A DNA stretch of 64,000 nt from Acidobacteria bacterium OLB17 (GTDB lineage: Bacteria; Acidobacteriota; Blastocatellia; Pyrinomonadales; Pyrinomonadaceae), in assembly GCA_001567505.1 (NCBI GenBank), contig LLEU01000027.1:1-64000 (forward strand), written 5' to 3'. The notes below the pieces were generated by a model. That model made no database searches. It saw nothing but the letters and a program-made list of their open reading frames with translations, and was not told the DNA's origin. Positions within the stretch are counted from its first letter, which is position 1. Every line of letters begins with the position of its first letter. The position numbers and the translations under genes were made by a program. Shown here piece by piece: positions 14,282 to 20,886 of this stretch.

Positions 14282-17142
14282 ATGAGTATCAAGCAGATCA
14301 GCGTTCGGGGAGCACGCCAGCATAATCTTAGGAATATCGATGTCGATATTCCGCGCGATAAATTCGTTGTGATCACGGGCCTTTCGGGCTCGGGAAAATC
14401 CTCGCTCGCATTCGATACGATCTATGCGGAAGGGCAGCGGCGCTACGTCGAATCGCTTTCCGCATACGCGCGCCAGTTCCTCGATCAGCTCGAAAAACCC
14501 GATGTTGATTCCGTCGAAGGCCTAAGCCCTGCGATCTCGATCGAGCAAAAGACCGTTTCGCGTTCGCCGCGTTCGACCGTCGGGACTGTTACCGAGATCT
14601 ACGACTTCCTGCGTCTGCTTTTTTCGTCGATCGGCCAGCCGCACTGCTTCGAATGCGGTGCGCCGATCACGCGGCAGTCCGTGGAGCAGATCGTCGGGGG
14701 GTATACTCGGCCTTCCTGAGGGCGAGCGAGTGATGATACTTGCGCCGATCGTCCGCGGCCGGAAAGGCGAGTTCAAGAAGGAGCTTTGAGAAGCTGCATC
14801 GCGACGGCTTCCTGCGTGCTCGGATCGACGGCGAGATGCGGCAGCTCGACGAGGAGATCAAGCTCGACAAACGCAAGAACCACACGATCGAGGTCGTTGT
14901 TGATCGGCTCTTGATGAAGGACGGCATACGCGAACGTTTGACCGAATCAGTGCGAACGGCCCTGAAATTAACGGACGGCGCAGTGCTTGTTTCGATCATC
15001 GACGGCGAGGAGAATCTTTACAGCGAGCGGATGGCGTGTGCGAATTGCGGTATCTCGATCGCACAGCTCGAACCGCGTTCGTTCTCGTTCAACTCCGCAT
15101 ACGGCGCATGCAAACGCTGCCAGGGCATCGGTACGGTGATGGAGGTCGATGCCTCGAAGATCGTGCCGGACGGTAACCTTCCGGCCGCGAAGATCGACTT
15201 TCTCGGCGGCGTTGACAGGGCAGGTGCGAACTTCCTTCGTGCGGCCCTGCTTGCTGTCATCGAGAAATTCACGACGGGCGATCCGGTCGCGCCGACGAAA
15301 AAGAAACGAGCTTCAAGGTCGTCGGCAAACAGCCTTTCGGATACGAACTACAACGACCTTCCGGCCGAGATCCGCGATGCGTTTATGAACGGCACGCGAC
15401 GGCGGCTAACGTTCCAATACGGCGAGAATAAGTTCGAGCGCGAGTGGCGCGGTGCGATCCGCACGATCCGCGAGAGGATCGACGAACCGCCTTCGGAGAA
15501 AGTGCGGGCCGCCCTTGAGGAGCTTGTTGCGCCGATGCCTTGTCCCGTGTGCAAGGGTGCGAGGCTTGCGCCCGAAAGCCTCGCCGTCAAGGTGAACGGC
15601 CTCGGCATTGCGGACTATACGGAGCTTCCGATCGCCGAATCTCTCGAAAAGTTCGAGGCGATCAGGCTCTCCGAACGCGACGAAAAGATCGCCGGCCTTG
15701 TGCTGAAGGAGATCCGCGACCGGCTGAGTTTCTTGAACGCGGTCGGCCTCGGCTACCTCACATTGGGACGCGCGTCCTCGACGCTTTCAGGCGGCGAAGG
15801 ACAGCGGATCAGGCTTGCGACGCAGATCGGTTCGCAGCTCCGCGGTGTGCTGTACGTCCTGGACGAGCCTTCTATCGGCCTGCACCCCCGCGACAATCGC
15901 AGGCTGCTCGAAACACTGCAGCGGCTTCGTGACCTCGGCAACACCGTGCTCGTCGTCGAGCACGACGAAGAGACGATAATGCACGCCGACCATGTCGTCG
16001 ATCTTGGGCCGCTTGCGGGCACGAACGGCGGCCGGATCGTAGCCGAAGGAACTCCAAAGCAGATCGAGAATACTCCCGGATCGCTCACCGGCAGCTACCT
16101 GAACGGCAAGTTGAAGATCGAGGTGCCGGATGTTCGCCGACTTCCGACCGGTGGAAGCCTAAAGGTCAAAGGTGCTCGTGCCTTCAACCTAAAGAACATC
16201 GAGGCGGAATTTCCTCTCGGGCTGTTGACGGTCGTGACCGGCGTGTCGGGTTCGGGAAAGTCAACGCTCGTCGAAGAGATACTTTTTCCCGCACTCTACC
16301 GTCACGTCTATAACTCGAACGTCGAGCCGCTCGAACACGATTCGATCGAAGGCCTTGAACTGATCGACAAGGTGATCGAGATCGACCAATCGCCGATCGG
16401 ACGCACGCCGCGCTCGAATCCAGCGACCTACACCGGCCTCTTTTCGCCGATCCGCGACCTTTACGCGATGCTGCCGGAATCGCGAACTCGCGGCTACAAG
16501 GCCGGGCGTTTCTCATTCAACGTCAAAGGCGGAAGGTGCGAGGCGTGCGAGGGCGACGGGATGAAGCGGATCGAGATGAATTTTCTCCCGGACGTTTACG
16601 TAACGTGTGATGTCTGCCGCGGAAAGCGTTATAACCGCGAGACCTTGATGGTCAAATACAAGGGACTTTCGATCTCGGACCTCCTCGATACTACGATCGA
16701 GGACGCTTTGCCGCTGCTCGAAAATATCCCGGCGATCCGGCAAAAACTCGAGACGCTGATAGATGTCGGCCTCGGCTATATCAAGATCGGGCAGTCTTCG
16801 ACCACGCTTTCGGGCGGCGAGGCACAGCGGATAAAACTCGCAAAGGAACTCTCGAAACGCGCTACGGGGAAGACCGTCTATATCCTCGACGAACCGACGA
16901 CGGGCCTGCATTTTGCGGACGTCCACAAACTTCTCGACGTGCTGCAAAAACTTGTCGATACGGGAAACACCGTGATCGTGATCGAACACAACCTCGACGT
17001 AATAAAATCTGCGGACTACGTGATAGACCTCGGGCCGGAAGGCGGTTCGGGCGGCGGCAGGATAGTGGCGAGCGGAAGGCCTGAGGAGATCGTCCGCGTA
17101 AGGAAGAGCTACACGGGCCAGGCTCTAAAAAGCGTTCTCTAA
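14282..17142 (+). CDS. uvrA: Excinuclease ABC subunit A, two frameshifts in this sequence
   Basis: Damage-recognition ATPase of nucleotide excision repair. It has two ABC modules, with Walker [10 protein letters not shown] near residue 35 and GVSGSGKST in the second half. Zinc-finger cysteines occur in CANCG...CKRCQG and CEACEGDG...CDVCRG, and both signature motifs LSGGE are present. Two single-base insertions break the frame: one in a G run at about 14696-14701, and one in TTT at 14785-14787. Between them the third frame reads [19 protein letters not shown], exactly the expected UvrA text. Removing both bases gives one intact protein of about 950 residues. This is almost certainly sequencing error. 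The stop overlaps the convergent microcompartment gene by four bases. Confidence 0.93.
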
Positions 17143-17410
17143 AGAAGGTCGATGCGATCGACGACGCGACGATCGCCGAGTCGATCGCAGCCCCGGGCTT
17201 GCCGGTCGAGGCGGTCGAGGCGGACCAGCCCTCCTGAGCGATCACGACGATATCCCCTACGCCCGAATTCACGGAATCGAGTGCGATGCACGTGTATTCC
17301 ATATCGTCGCCTTCCGGCGTGATCTGTCGGCACAACATCGCGCGCGTTCCTTCATAACGCTGATTCTTTTGCGTGGCGACGATATTCCCAATTACGCGTG
17401 CAAGGAGCAT
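17139..17410 (-). CDS. EutN/CcmL-type microcompartment vertex protein (third copy), frameshifted near its end
   Basis: About 90 residues. It opens with [17 protein letters not shown], has the [16 protein letters not shown]-like core seen as [13 protein letters not shown], and reaches GAAIDSAIV. Such proteins form pentamers that cap the vertices of a bacterial microcompartment. Near 17170 one base is missing, so the frame runs on into antisense uvrA. In the shifted frame the sequence gives VVDRIDLL and a stop at 17139-17141, the expected end by comparison with its paralogue GVIDEIDFKA. It is the last gene of the operon, 12 bases after the next copy. Confidence 0.85.
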
Positions 17411-17422
17411 TTCGTGACGGAG

Positions 17423-17698
17423 CTAGGCGGTGAAGACGTGTTCGTCGGAATCGATTATTCCGACGATGGTGCAGTCGGTCGGCGTTTCGTCGCGTTTGAA
17501 GGGAAATGACGCTTCCTTTCCGCGACACCAAAAGACGAGTTCGCCGATGCCGGCACCGGCCGCGTCAAGAGCGACCATCGGCTTGCCCTTCGGCTTGAGT
17601 TCGGCATCAAGCGTCTGCACGATCAGGAATTTGCGGCCGTCGAGAGCTTTGTTCTTGACGGTCGAAACAACATTTCCGATGACGCGTGCGAGCTGCAT
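17423..17698 (-). CDS. EutN/CcmL-type microcompartment vertex protein (second copy)
   Basis: 91 residues starting MQLARVIGNVVSTVKN. The start at 17698 is chosen by homology with the two neighbours and by an AAAGGAA ahead of it. The core LIVQTLD...VALDAAGAGIGELVFWCRG is typical of BMC pentamers, and the protein ends TIVGIIDSDEHVFTA. It contains extra Lys and Phe (GKEASFPFKRDE) before the last strand, so the three copies are not identical and may build mixed or alternative vertices. It is 20 bases after the first copy. Confidence 0.9.
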   Translation of the reverse strand: MQLARVIGNVVSTVKNKALDGRKFLIVQTLDAELKPKGKPMVALDAAGAGIGELVFWCRGKEASFPFKRDETPTDCTIVGIIDSDEHVFTA

Positions 17699-17718
17699 TC
17701 CAATTCCTTTCGGGACGG

Positions 17719-17988
17719 CTATGCCTTGAAATCGATCTCGTCGATGACGCCGATGATCGCCGAATCGACAGGGCAATCCTTGTTCCCCTCAGCCATTCGT
17801 GCCGACGAACCACCGACGACAATGACCTTTTCGTGAAATCCCGCTCCGACCGTATCGACCGAGACGAGGTAGCCGCTCAGATCCGAGCCGTCGAGATCGA
17901 TCGGCTTTACGATCAGGAGCTTTTTGCCCTGAAGCCGTTCGTCCTTTTGGGTCGAAACGACGGTTCCTAAGATTCTTGCAATGATCAT
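17719..17988 (-). CDS. EutN/CcmL-type microcompartment vertex protein (first copy)
   Basis: 89 residues when started at MIIARILGTVVSTQKD (17988), which aligns with the paralogues; an upstream in-frame ATG would add eight non-conserved residues. The core KLLIVKPIDLDG...VSVDTVGAGFHEKVIVVGG and the end IIGVIDEIDFKA are textbook EutN/CcmL. It lies about 120 bases after the hexamer gene. Confidence 0.92.
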   Translation of the reverse strand: MIIARILGTVVSTQKDERLQGKKLLIVKPIDLDGSDLSGYLVSVDTVGAGFHEKVIVVGGSSARMAEGNKDCPVDSAIIGVIDEIDFKA

Positions 17989-18107
17989 TGATCGGGTAAA
18001 GGCCGACGCCAATGCCGGACGGCCGAAGTGGAATGATCCGATGCGCGCGCGAAAGATCAGTCCGTTAGCAGTCCGCCGGATCGGCCCGGCCTTGTGTTAG
18101 GGAAGGT

Positions 18108-18386
18108 TCACTTACGGACGACCGGCAGCGTTTCATCGACGCTTGAGTGCGGACGCGGGATCACGTGGACGCTTACGAGTTCGCCGACGCGCCGTGCTGC
18201 GGCCGCTCCTGCATCCGTGGCAGCCTTTACCGCGGCAACATCACCGCGAACGATCGCCGTGACAAAGCCCGCACCGATCTTCTCATAGCTGACAAGCTGA
18301 ACATTCGCAGCCTTGACCATTGCGTCTGCCGCCTCGATCATCGCCACAAGCCCTTTGGTCTCAACCATTCCTAATGCTTCTTGCAT
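18108..18386 (-). CDS. BMC-domain hexameric shell protein (PduA/EutM/CcmK type)
   Basis: 92 residues, a single BMC domain. It opens with [24 protein letters not shown] and has the pore loop KIGAG (36-40; related proteins have KIGSG). The C-terminal strand VHVIPRPH is followed by a short tail. Hexamers of such proteins tile the facets of microcompartments, and the central pore passes small metabolites. Having only one hexamer gene and no tandem-BMC trimer makes this a minimal shell set. It lies 36 bases after the SPFH gene. Confidence 0.94.
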
Positions 18387-18422
18387 TCGTTATTCACTCC
18401 TGAGATCTATCGAAAAAAAATT

Positions 18423-19184
18423 CTATTCCAAGTTTACTGCGCTTGCCGGAGAGCCTCCAATGACAAAAGTATGTTTGCCCTTTTCGGCGATCTTCGTTAT
18501 TGCTTCTAGATACTGTATGAAACGGATATTCTCGTCGCCTTTCATCATATCCGAGGCGTTCTTCAAAGCACGAGCGGCCGCAACGGCCGTGCGTGCATTC
18601 TCAAGATCTGACTTTGCACGTATCGAAGCCTCAAGCTGCTTCGAGAACAGATCCTGGATAGCTTTCGGGAAGGTGAGGTCGCGGATCAGCAGGCGGACGA
18701 TCTCGATACCTACTTCTTTGAGTTCGGCGACGATGTCAGTTGGGATCTCCGGGATCAGCTCGGTTCTCTTTTCGTTTACCTCCTGACTCTCGATGGCCGA
18801 GATCACCTTCCGCAAATGAACCTGCGTGAGGTTATGGACGAGTTGGTCGGCCTCGGCAAAAATGTTGTACGACCGCATAAAAACGTCGAACGACCGGACG
18901 AAAGCGTCCGGGTCAACGACCTTGTATTCGACAAAGTACGAGAACCGAAATGCGATATTGTCTTTGGTAAGCACCTCCTGATTCGTCACATTAGCGAAGC
19001 GGTTCACCAATGGGATGACCACTAAATTAAGGTGTTTATTGTAGTCAAAACGATCGTATATTCCCGGCTCTAATTTTTCCTCGAACCGGTTCTTTCGATA
19101 CAGAAGGCCGACCTGATTCGGAAGAACCCACAGGCGAACCCTCCAAAAACTCCTACGTCGTAGAAACTGATCAGATTGATACAT
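18423..19184 (-). CDS. SPFH/band-7 domain protein inside the microcompartment operon
   Basis: 253 residues. The N-terminus (VRLWVLPNQVGLLYRKNRFEE) and residues 60-190 match the SPFH/prohibitin-homology fold: VLTKDNIAFRFSYFVEYKVVDP, then LRKVISAIESQEVNEKR, then VGIEIVRLLIRDLTFP. A helical, alanine-rich coiled-coil segment (about 185-235) follows. No clear transmembrane helix is present, unlike stomatin or slipin, so membrane contact would have to be peripheral. Flanked on both sides by microcompartment genes on the same strand, it is likely to act with them, perhaps as an oligomeric scaffold. That role is inference; SPFH genes are not a usual shell or cargo component. Confidence 0.85.
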   Translation of the reverse strand: MYQSDQFLRRRSFWRVRLWVLPNQVGLLYRKNRFEEKLEPGIYDRFDYNKHLNLVVIPLVNRFANVTNQEVLTKDNIAFRFSYFVEYKVVDPDAFVRSFDVFMRSYNIFAEADQLVHNLTQVHLRKVISAIESQEVNEKRTELIPEIPTDIVAELKEVGIEIVRLLIRDLTFPKAIQDLFSKQLEASIRAKSDLENARTAVAAARALKNASDMMKGDENIRFIQYLEAITKIAEKGKHTFVIGGSPASAVNLE

Positions 19185-19476: not shown

Positions 19477-20277
19477 CTACCCAAGGTTGGCCGCTTGGCT
19501 CAAAAGCTCGATCAATTCCTCACGTGAAAGCGAGACCTTCGGCAGTGCTGTTTCATTTGTGGTACGTACCACGATCTGTGAATCGCACGTGATCCCGGCG
19601 TTGTGAAGGTAGCCGCAGGCCTGGCAGCGGGCGTTCTCCTTGAGGTAACCTGCCTTTTCCCTGATATTTATGAGCTTTTCGATGGCGTCGGGCGGAAGAT
19701 CGTTCGCGCCGCCGAGTGCCCGTGCAAGGATGGCGATCTTCGCCGTATGCTCGAGCGTTTCAAGGCGGTCGAATGCCTGCCACAGGTCGGCTCCGTAAGC
19801 GACGGCGCCGTGATTTGCCATCAAAAGAGCGTTGTGGTCGGTGACAAAAGGCCGCATCGCCTCCGTAAGTTCGCTCGTTGAGGGCGTGCCGTATTCGGTC
19901 AGAGGAACGCAGCCAAGGGTCAGGATGACTTCCGAGAGTATCGGTTCGTCGATCGCGAGGCCTGCAACGGCGAACGCGGTCCCGTGCGGCGGATGCGCGT
20001 GACAGACGGCCTTAACGTCCGGGCGCATCTTGTAGATCAGGAGGTGCATGGCAAGCTCGCTCGATGCGCGCTTGTCCGAAAGCGGCTTGCCGTCCATGTC
20101 GGTCAGAGCAAGCGAATCTTCCGTCATACGGCCCTTGCAGGTCATCGTCGGGGTCGCAAGGACTGTGTTGTCGTCAAGGCGGCAGCTTACGTTGCCGTCC
20201 GAGGAAACAACGTAACTGCGGTCGTAAAGGAGCTTTCCGATCTCGACAATGAGCTTGCGGGCAGATGTCTCGTCCAT
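19477..20277 (-). CDS. Class II aldolase (fuculose-phosphate aldolase-like) with candidate encapsulation tail
   Basis: 266 residues. The zinc-dependent class II aldolase/adducin fold shows the catalytic E74 and zinc ligands H93-x-H95 and H156 (in MANHGAVAYG). The family cleaves L-fuculose-1-phosphate, L-rhamnulose-1-phosphate or related sugar phosphates to DHAP and an aldehyde. After the fold comes an extension with C218-x2-C221 and C231, then a linker, and at 249-266 an amphipathic helix (SREELIELLSQAANL). This layout is typical of encapsulation peptides that target enzymes into microcompartments. It is the first gene of the BMC operon. The sugar is not determinable here; fucose or rhamnose is the precedent from planctomycete-type BMCs. 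Confidence 0.88.
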   Translation of the reverse strand: MDETSARKLIVEIGKLLYDRSYVVSSDGNVSCRLDDNTVLATPTMTCKGRMTEDSLALTDMDGKPLSDKRASSELAMHLLIYKMRPDVKAVCHAHPPHGTAFAVAGLAIDEPILSEVILTLGCVPLTEYGTPSTSELTEAMRPFVTDHNALLMANHGAVAYGADLWQAFDRLETLEHTAKIAILARALGGANDLPPDAIEKLINIREKAGYLKENARCQACGYLHNAGITCDSQIVVRTTNETALPKVSLSREELIELLSQAANLG

Positions 20278-20284
20278 ATGTAAA

Positions 20285-20529
20285 AGTTGGGAAGTTACGA
20301 AGTTACGAAGTTTCGAAGTTACGAAGTTGGGAAGTTACGAAGTTACGAAATTTCGAAGTTGGGAAGTTACGAAGTTACGAAGTTACGAAGAAATGTGCAA
20401 CTTCGCAACTTCGAAACTTCGCAACTTAGTAAACACCGCAACTTCGCAAACTCCGCAACTTCGCAACTTCGCAAACTCCGCAACTTCGCAACTTCGTAAA
20501 CTCCGCAACTTAGTAAACTTCGCAACTTA
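20285..20529. repeat. Inverted array of 8-nt repeats
   Basis: The left arm (20285 to about 20390) is a tandem array of GAAGTTAC with variants GAAGTTTC and GAAGTTGG. The right arm (about 20397-20529) is a tandem array of GCAACTTC, with 9-nt variants such as GCAAACTCC. The arms are near reverse complements around a centre at 20391-20396 and could form an imperfect hairpin of about 100 bp. The array fills the entire space between the stop of the upstream minus-strand gene and the aldolase start, so any transcript of the operon from upstream includes it. Confidence 0.92.
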
Positions 20530-20886
20530 TTTCCCTTGCTCGTGCGTCCTGTGAACGTGGACGCGTCGTTGGCGAGTTTCGCCCGTGGAACCAAATGTCA
20601 TTTCATCGACCGGAGCTGCTCTGACGCCCGGTATCGGCGGCAGATCGGGCGATTCGATCCGGGGCAGCGGATCCGAGAAGGAATTCTCTTCGAGCTGGCG
20701 GCGCAGGTATTGATTTTCCCGCTCGAGGCGTTCCATACGGAACTTCATCGACCGGCAGCGTCCGCGTCCGCGGCCGTGTTCAAAACGCGGTGCGGAAAGA
20801 TCGACAAAGAAGCTTGCCACAAAGATACCGACCGAAAACGCCGCGACGAACGGCACAAAACGCTTAACAAAACTCATTACGTCCAT
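20527..20886 (-). CDS. Small membrane-anchored protein with coiled coil, unknown function
   Basis: 119 residues. One N-terminal transmembrane helix (about 10-28, FVPFVAAFSVGIFVASFF), then a basic stretch, a short coiled coil (MERLERENQYLRRQLEE at about 51-67) and a proline-rich tail ending in a His/Arg-rich segment. No known family was recognised. It is on the same strand as the BMC operon, separated only by the repeat array, but nothing else ties it to the compartment. Confidence 0.6.
   Translation of the reverse strand: MDVMSFVKRFVPFVAAFSVGIFVASFFVDLSAPRFEHGRGRGRCRSMKFRMERLERENQYLRRQLEENSFSDPLPRIESPDLPPIPGVRAAPVDEMTFGSTGETRQRRVHVHRTHEQGK

Follow-up and report, generated by a model that had tools for sequence, protein, structure and literature searches.

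To our knowledge, no function has been assigned to the IVP/S23 proteins since their discovery in rRNA intervening sequences. The IVP-bearing intervening sequences of 23S rRNA have complementary ends, carry in their loop an open reading frame (ORF) that can decay, and are excised by RNase III (PMC4990558). In those with an S23/IVP ORF, including the ones of Coxiella and Leptospira, the complementary ends give a long stem, the ORF occupies the loop of the gene-bearing forms, ORF-less forms exist, and the element sits in a transcribed unit (PMC4990558). In a cyanobacterial CRISPR operon, an IVP gene has also been found between cmr3 and cmr2 and was listed among possible Cas-associated genes (PMC3936711). 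Three further systems are close to the locus described here, namely the STRR/heptamer repeats of cyanobacteria and the TAACTGA sets of Beggiatoaceae (PMC4679880), which are short tandem intergenic words that are scattered and often lie at gene ends, the REP/BIME/REPIN sequences, which are small interspersed intergenic palindromes, and the bacterial MITEs, ORF-less forms sharing their ends with a gene-bearing relative in the genome.

The locus lies in a window of 64,000 nucleotides, the whole stretch of DNA analysed, from a member of the Pyrinomonadaceae (Acidobacteriota), and consists of an inverted array of octamers in front of a BMC operon. Like the rRNA intervening sequences it has complementary ends forming a long stem, but it is situated between protein genes and not in 23S rRNA (no rRNA match was found in the window with Rfam 15), its stem arms are made of tandem short words, and its loop of 6-8 nt holds no IVP ORF, whereas a relative built of the same word on contig 16 has one. 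The TAACTGA sets consist of direct repeats for which no folding is predicted (PMC4679880), while the arrays considered here are facing arms with a matched word. The octamer unit differs from REP, BIME and REPIN in being 8 nt long and itself non-palindromic, rather than 20-40 nt, and in that other words are used at other loci. Regarding MITEs, what the ORF-less and gene-bearing forms share is a word family and not an identical terminal sequence, there is no known transposase link for the arrays, and the ends are tandem words differing by locus. The features of the array and its setting are as follows.

16862..19184, - strand, rest of the BMC operon: Band_7 protein, BMC shell protein and three EutN/CcmL proteins
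19477..20277, - strand, class II aldolase (PF00596), the first gene past the array, which heads the BMC operon
20285..20390, + strand, left arm: about 12 GAAGTTAC-type octamers with the variants GAAGTTTC, GAAGTTGG and GAAATTTC
20391..20396, no strand, central spacer forming the hairpin loop, about 6-8 nt, too short for an ORF
20397..20529, - strand, right arm: GCAACTTC-type units, about 16 in number, among which 9-nt GCAAACTCC units are interspersed, the last unit holding the stop of the 119-aa gene
20527..20886, - strand, upstream gene of 119 aa without a Pfam match; relatives have a homologous frame in this position

In the same window, uvrA appears on the + strand as two adjacent frames (14282-14719 and 14740-17142, together 14282-17142), through a frameshift or an assembly error.

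The preliminary description had reported facing octamer arrays at 20285-20529, and these are real: according to TRF, GAAGTTAC is repeated 12.5 times at 20291-20390, with 85% matches and without indels, and GCAACTTC 15.9 times at 20397-20528, and the 9-nt units produce higher-order periods of 17 and 25. Each arm alone is a run of tandem direct repeats of one short intergenic word, and the two arms face each other as inverted repeats with a complementarity of 81-91% in several registers. The palindrome is inexact, the variable position being mostly A in the left arm and mostly G in the complement of the right arm. The array occupies the whole gap of about 250 bp between the 119-aa gene and the aldolase gene, again as first described: the start codon of the aldolase gene reaches to 20277, leaving 7 nt to the edge of the array, and the stop codon of the 119-aa gene (20527-20529, - strand) lies inside the last unit, the arrays running into both genes. 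The 119-aa gene and the aldolase-BMC genes are all on the - strand, placing the array in a codirectional gap. The earlier suggestion that a hairpin-forming repeat had grown by slippage fits the degenerate units, the 9-nt units and the higher-order duplications, which differ between the left and the right arm.

Regarding folding, the operon strand of the array gave -139 kcal/mol (z -16.6) and the other strand -102 kcal/mol (z -10.3), with none of 200 shuffles as low in either case; a fold in the mRNA, as had been proposed, is plausible. The fold is strongest on the operon strand because the mismatched variable position pairs there as G.U and on the other strand as A.C. The best arm alignment of the window array contains 11 G.U and 0 A.C pairs, the units not being independent of each other. 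This is not claimed as general RNA-level selection for G.U over A.C, since the bias is strong in the window only (11:0) and weak in all other loci together (21:15), with no such trend in the IVP arms. No terminator-like site (GC-rich stem plus T run) was found at the window array, against 1.6 expected in shuffles, no promoter-like site was found in the array region, and Rfam 15 gave no match at gathering score for the array.

Comparison of orthologous loci showed that the long paired array at the aldolase site is found in the window genome only, being absent from the 29 other orthologous loci read. In most species this site bears a short hairpin that is conserved, CCACAGRTTAAC...GTTAATCTGTGG, immediately ahead of the start codon (orthologous loci L105-L128). 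In the clade of the window genome (G000) with G021, G022, G013, G017 and G002 this hairpin is partly lost or eroded, and octamers of the AACTCTGC/AACTTCGT kind adjoin the aldolase start. In relatives, hairpins of other words are present shortly downstream of the aldolase, in a gap of the same BMC operon (L130 11127, L131 11126, L169 11200).

The distribution of the word was followed through pattern searches and individually fetched loci, on which all genome-wide counts are based, in genomes that are nearly all metagenome assemblies. The exact three-unit pattern occurs in its own genome in the window array only, and elsewhere in seven other genomes of the genus and in 0 of 15 genomes that belong to the same class but not to the genus. 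The degenerate word RAGTTNC in three consecutive units was detected in 17 of 41 genus genomes, at up to about 14 places per genome, compared with a single match for the reversed-pattern control; the window genome has only about four such sites, and no runs were found in G021 and G022, its two closest relatives by aldolase identity. RAGTTNC stands at many unrelated intergenic sites, in many of them as a forward run followed by a reverse run, that is, as facing arms, and arrays also lie inside other operons, for instance between rpsJ and rplC and between tsf and pyrH (these genes, like dnaJ and hspR below, were named by reading the visible coding sequence).

Such sites are not placed at random. 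In a survey of loci from 80 relatives, each locus no longer than 20 kb and with ORF directions called by a small program trained on the codon usage of the window, significant inverted hairpins were present in 70 of 319 codirectional gaps of 60-400 bp (22%), in 6 of 47 convergent and in 9 of 58 divergent ones, and many of them are built of the same kind of words. The window array is a long member of this abundant hairpin class. The search of genome and relatives that had been recommended for the octamers gave a divided answer: with the arrays scattered over unrelated intergenic sites, a reading specific to one operon fails by the refuting condition set in the preliminary description, yet their position, mostly in codirectional gaps, is not random.

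A link of the arrays to IVP genes had not been foreseen by the preliminary description. In the window genome, facing RAGTTNC arms on contig 16 (363-483 and 870-958) enclose an IVP gene (515-907) located between dnaJ and hspR; its product of 130 aa is a four-helix bundle of the family PF05635 (23S_rRNA_IVP), to which the solved structures 2gsc and 2rld are related. Of the window array's 238 8-mers, 77 recur in the arms of this gene, compared with 11 for the second-best IVP locus. IVP genes are present in all 41 genus genomes in 1 to 17 copies each, and exceeded the cut-off in 29 of 60 genomes drawn across the phylum Acidobacteriota.

Many IVP loci, in the genus and phylum-wide, are flanked by inverted degenerate tandem arrays of 6-9 nt, the word varying between loci and matching between the two arms of one locus. 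The words include AATCGTN, GTGACRAGT, GTCTAGGAA, AGTTGGC and GTGGTCA in the genus and GGGCAGAT, GGATAGAG, GGACTAGG and AGTTCAA outside it. Sharing of k-mers between left and right arms was higher within than between loci (p 7e-12 for the genus and 3e-13 for loci beyond it), for IVP loci chosen by score and not randomly; this test came after one by local alignment that had been blurred by duplicate orthologous loci. About half of the genus IVP loci had an arm score not above the random 99% level, many arms being weak or absent. IVP genes were codirectional with both neighbours at 42 of 44 genus loci, compared with 57 of 135 small control ORFs. The vocabulary of the IVP arms showed a weak overall excess in other hairpin gaps (p 0.045), and a subset of them matched strongly. 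That word and IVP protein are inherited together was considered and rejected, arm word and protein similarity being uncorrelated overall across loci (Spearman 0.01); the arms are thus not simply passed on along with the gene. In the open-access literature we found no account of intergenic IVP genes with word-array arms.

The dnaJ-hspR site exists in several states among 30 species. Nine have an IVP gene with RAGTTNC arms, some have a 4-nt gene overlap, and some have ORF-less hairpins of various words, such as GTCTAGGAA in G009 and RAGTT in G010. In one of the nine, G013, the IVP gene (G013:C6:208556-208866) is frameshifted with the left array still in place, and the locus is, as judged from its reading frame, a decaying gene-bearing element. 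RAGTTNC arrays at two or more other sites were seen in 6 of the 9 species with a RAGTTNC IVP at dnaJ-hspR and in 2 of the 21 without (Fisher p 0.003, from counts read by eye and not corrected for relatedness). Regarding array dynamics, orthologous arms vary in length and higher-order pattern, including between close relatives, and one array pair has a 96-bp interior that lies in opposite orientations in G002 and G013 (L066 4067-4162 versus L084 4040-4135; local score 86 inverted, 18 direct), with collinear flanks; this interior holds nested GC-rich hairpins. Inverted interior and arm variation fit slippage combined with exchange or template switching between arms, and the turning of imperfect into perfect palindromes by template switching, which may also act here, is known biology (cited in PMC4060949).

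The explanation we favour, with about an even chance of being correct as a whole, is that the window array belongs, without an ORF of its own, to a class of intergenic hairpins, that it is a transcribed spacer cleavable by RNase III, and that its host is hardly affected by it; we are surer of the class assignment by itself than of the processing step. The arms of the class would be inverted degenerate tandem arrays of a locus-specific word of 6-9 nt, gene-bearing members would carry the gene for the IVP four-helix bundle in the loop, and the same-word gene-bearing relative in the window genome would be the dnaJ-hspR element. The arms would lengthen by slippage between units, and template switching or recombination between them would keep them alike and could flip the interior. 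Lying in a codirectional gap, the array would be transcribed with the operon and give a duplex of roughly 115 bp in the mRNA, most likely cut by RNase III by analogy with the IVP-bearing intervening sequences of 23S rRNA. Cleavage would split the mRNA of the 119-aa gene from that of the aldolase-BMC genes at little cost, whatever benefit the cell or the element may draw from it. The window array has no IVP remnant, and its kinship with the IVP elements rests on the common word and architecture.

Alternatively, the array may be a neutral by-product, a short chance palindrome grown by slippage and quasipalindrome correction in a tolerant gap, neither element-like nor functional, with IVP genes simply found in such places. 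We regard this as a serious possibility, since words vary by locus, arm length varies between close relatives and word and IVP phylogeny show no overall link; hairpins without an ORF in about a fifth of codirectional gaps also mean that IVP genes may merely live there. However, independent slippage does not predict the same word at many unrelated places per genome in 17 of 41 genus genomes, and the codirectionality of IVP genes at 42 of 44 loci likewise argues against it.

A bolder form of the favoured explanation, which we put forward tentatively and hold to be doubtful rather than probable, is that IVP genes and ORF-less arrays together make up a single, so far undescribed class of hairpin elements that invade operons, in which the paired word arms would be recognised, as RNA or DNA, by the IVP protein, which would drive their maintenance or spread, with a separate word evolving in each element lineage, and of which the rRNA intervening sequences would be a special case that landed in rRNA. 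IVP genes in sense orientation in operons, matched inverted word arrays and many gene-less copies could explain odd IVP placements. The pattern of IVP gene and arrays allows a direct test of an IVP role in binding or moving word hairpins, and the word-arm pattern offers a recognition rule for a large intergenic class left blank by annotation.

A leader, attenuator or terminator insulating or regulating the BMC operon is unlikely. The array directly precedes the aldolase start, its sense strand folds strongly, and most relatives keep a short hairpin at the site, all of which would suit such a role, but the relatives lack the long paired array, the same kind of array occurs inside other operons, and the region has no terminator-like or promoter-like site. 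Strong termination is improbable for arrays that lie within operons such as rpsJ-rplC and tsf-pyrH, and a regulator specific to this operon was rejected on the distribution of word and array. Of the earlier proposals, a fold in the mRNA is plausible, whereas an insulator or regulator dedicated to the BMC genes finds no support.

The further proposal of a chromosomal organisation element of the REP/BIME kind is very improbable; the arrangement is interspersed, intergenic and palindromic, but the short non-palindromic unit, the confinement of the word to part of one genus, the use of other words at other loci and the few RAGTTNC sites in the window genome speak against it. An artefact of a metagenome-assembled genome is more improbable still: the array comes from a single assembly and a 245-bp palindrome is hard for short reads, but its units differ among themselves and paired arrays of the same kind are found in genomes of other species from other studies. 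Copying of the repeats by a reverse transcriptase, DGR-like or telomerase-like and with IVP as an Avd-like partner, would agree with the homology of IVP to DGR Avd (PMC10053308) and with tandem words that have fixed variable positions, but is largely refuted and hardly credible, since just 8 of the 41 genomes have a detected RVT_1, and the array-rich G000, G013, G017, G019 and G040 are not among them.

As a minor observation, loci L065, L068 and L086 contain a REP-like word, GCCCGCACGGAGTAAGGGCAC or variants of it, within or next to the octamer arms, sometimes in inverted orientation.
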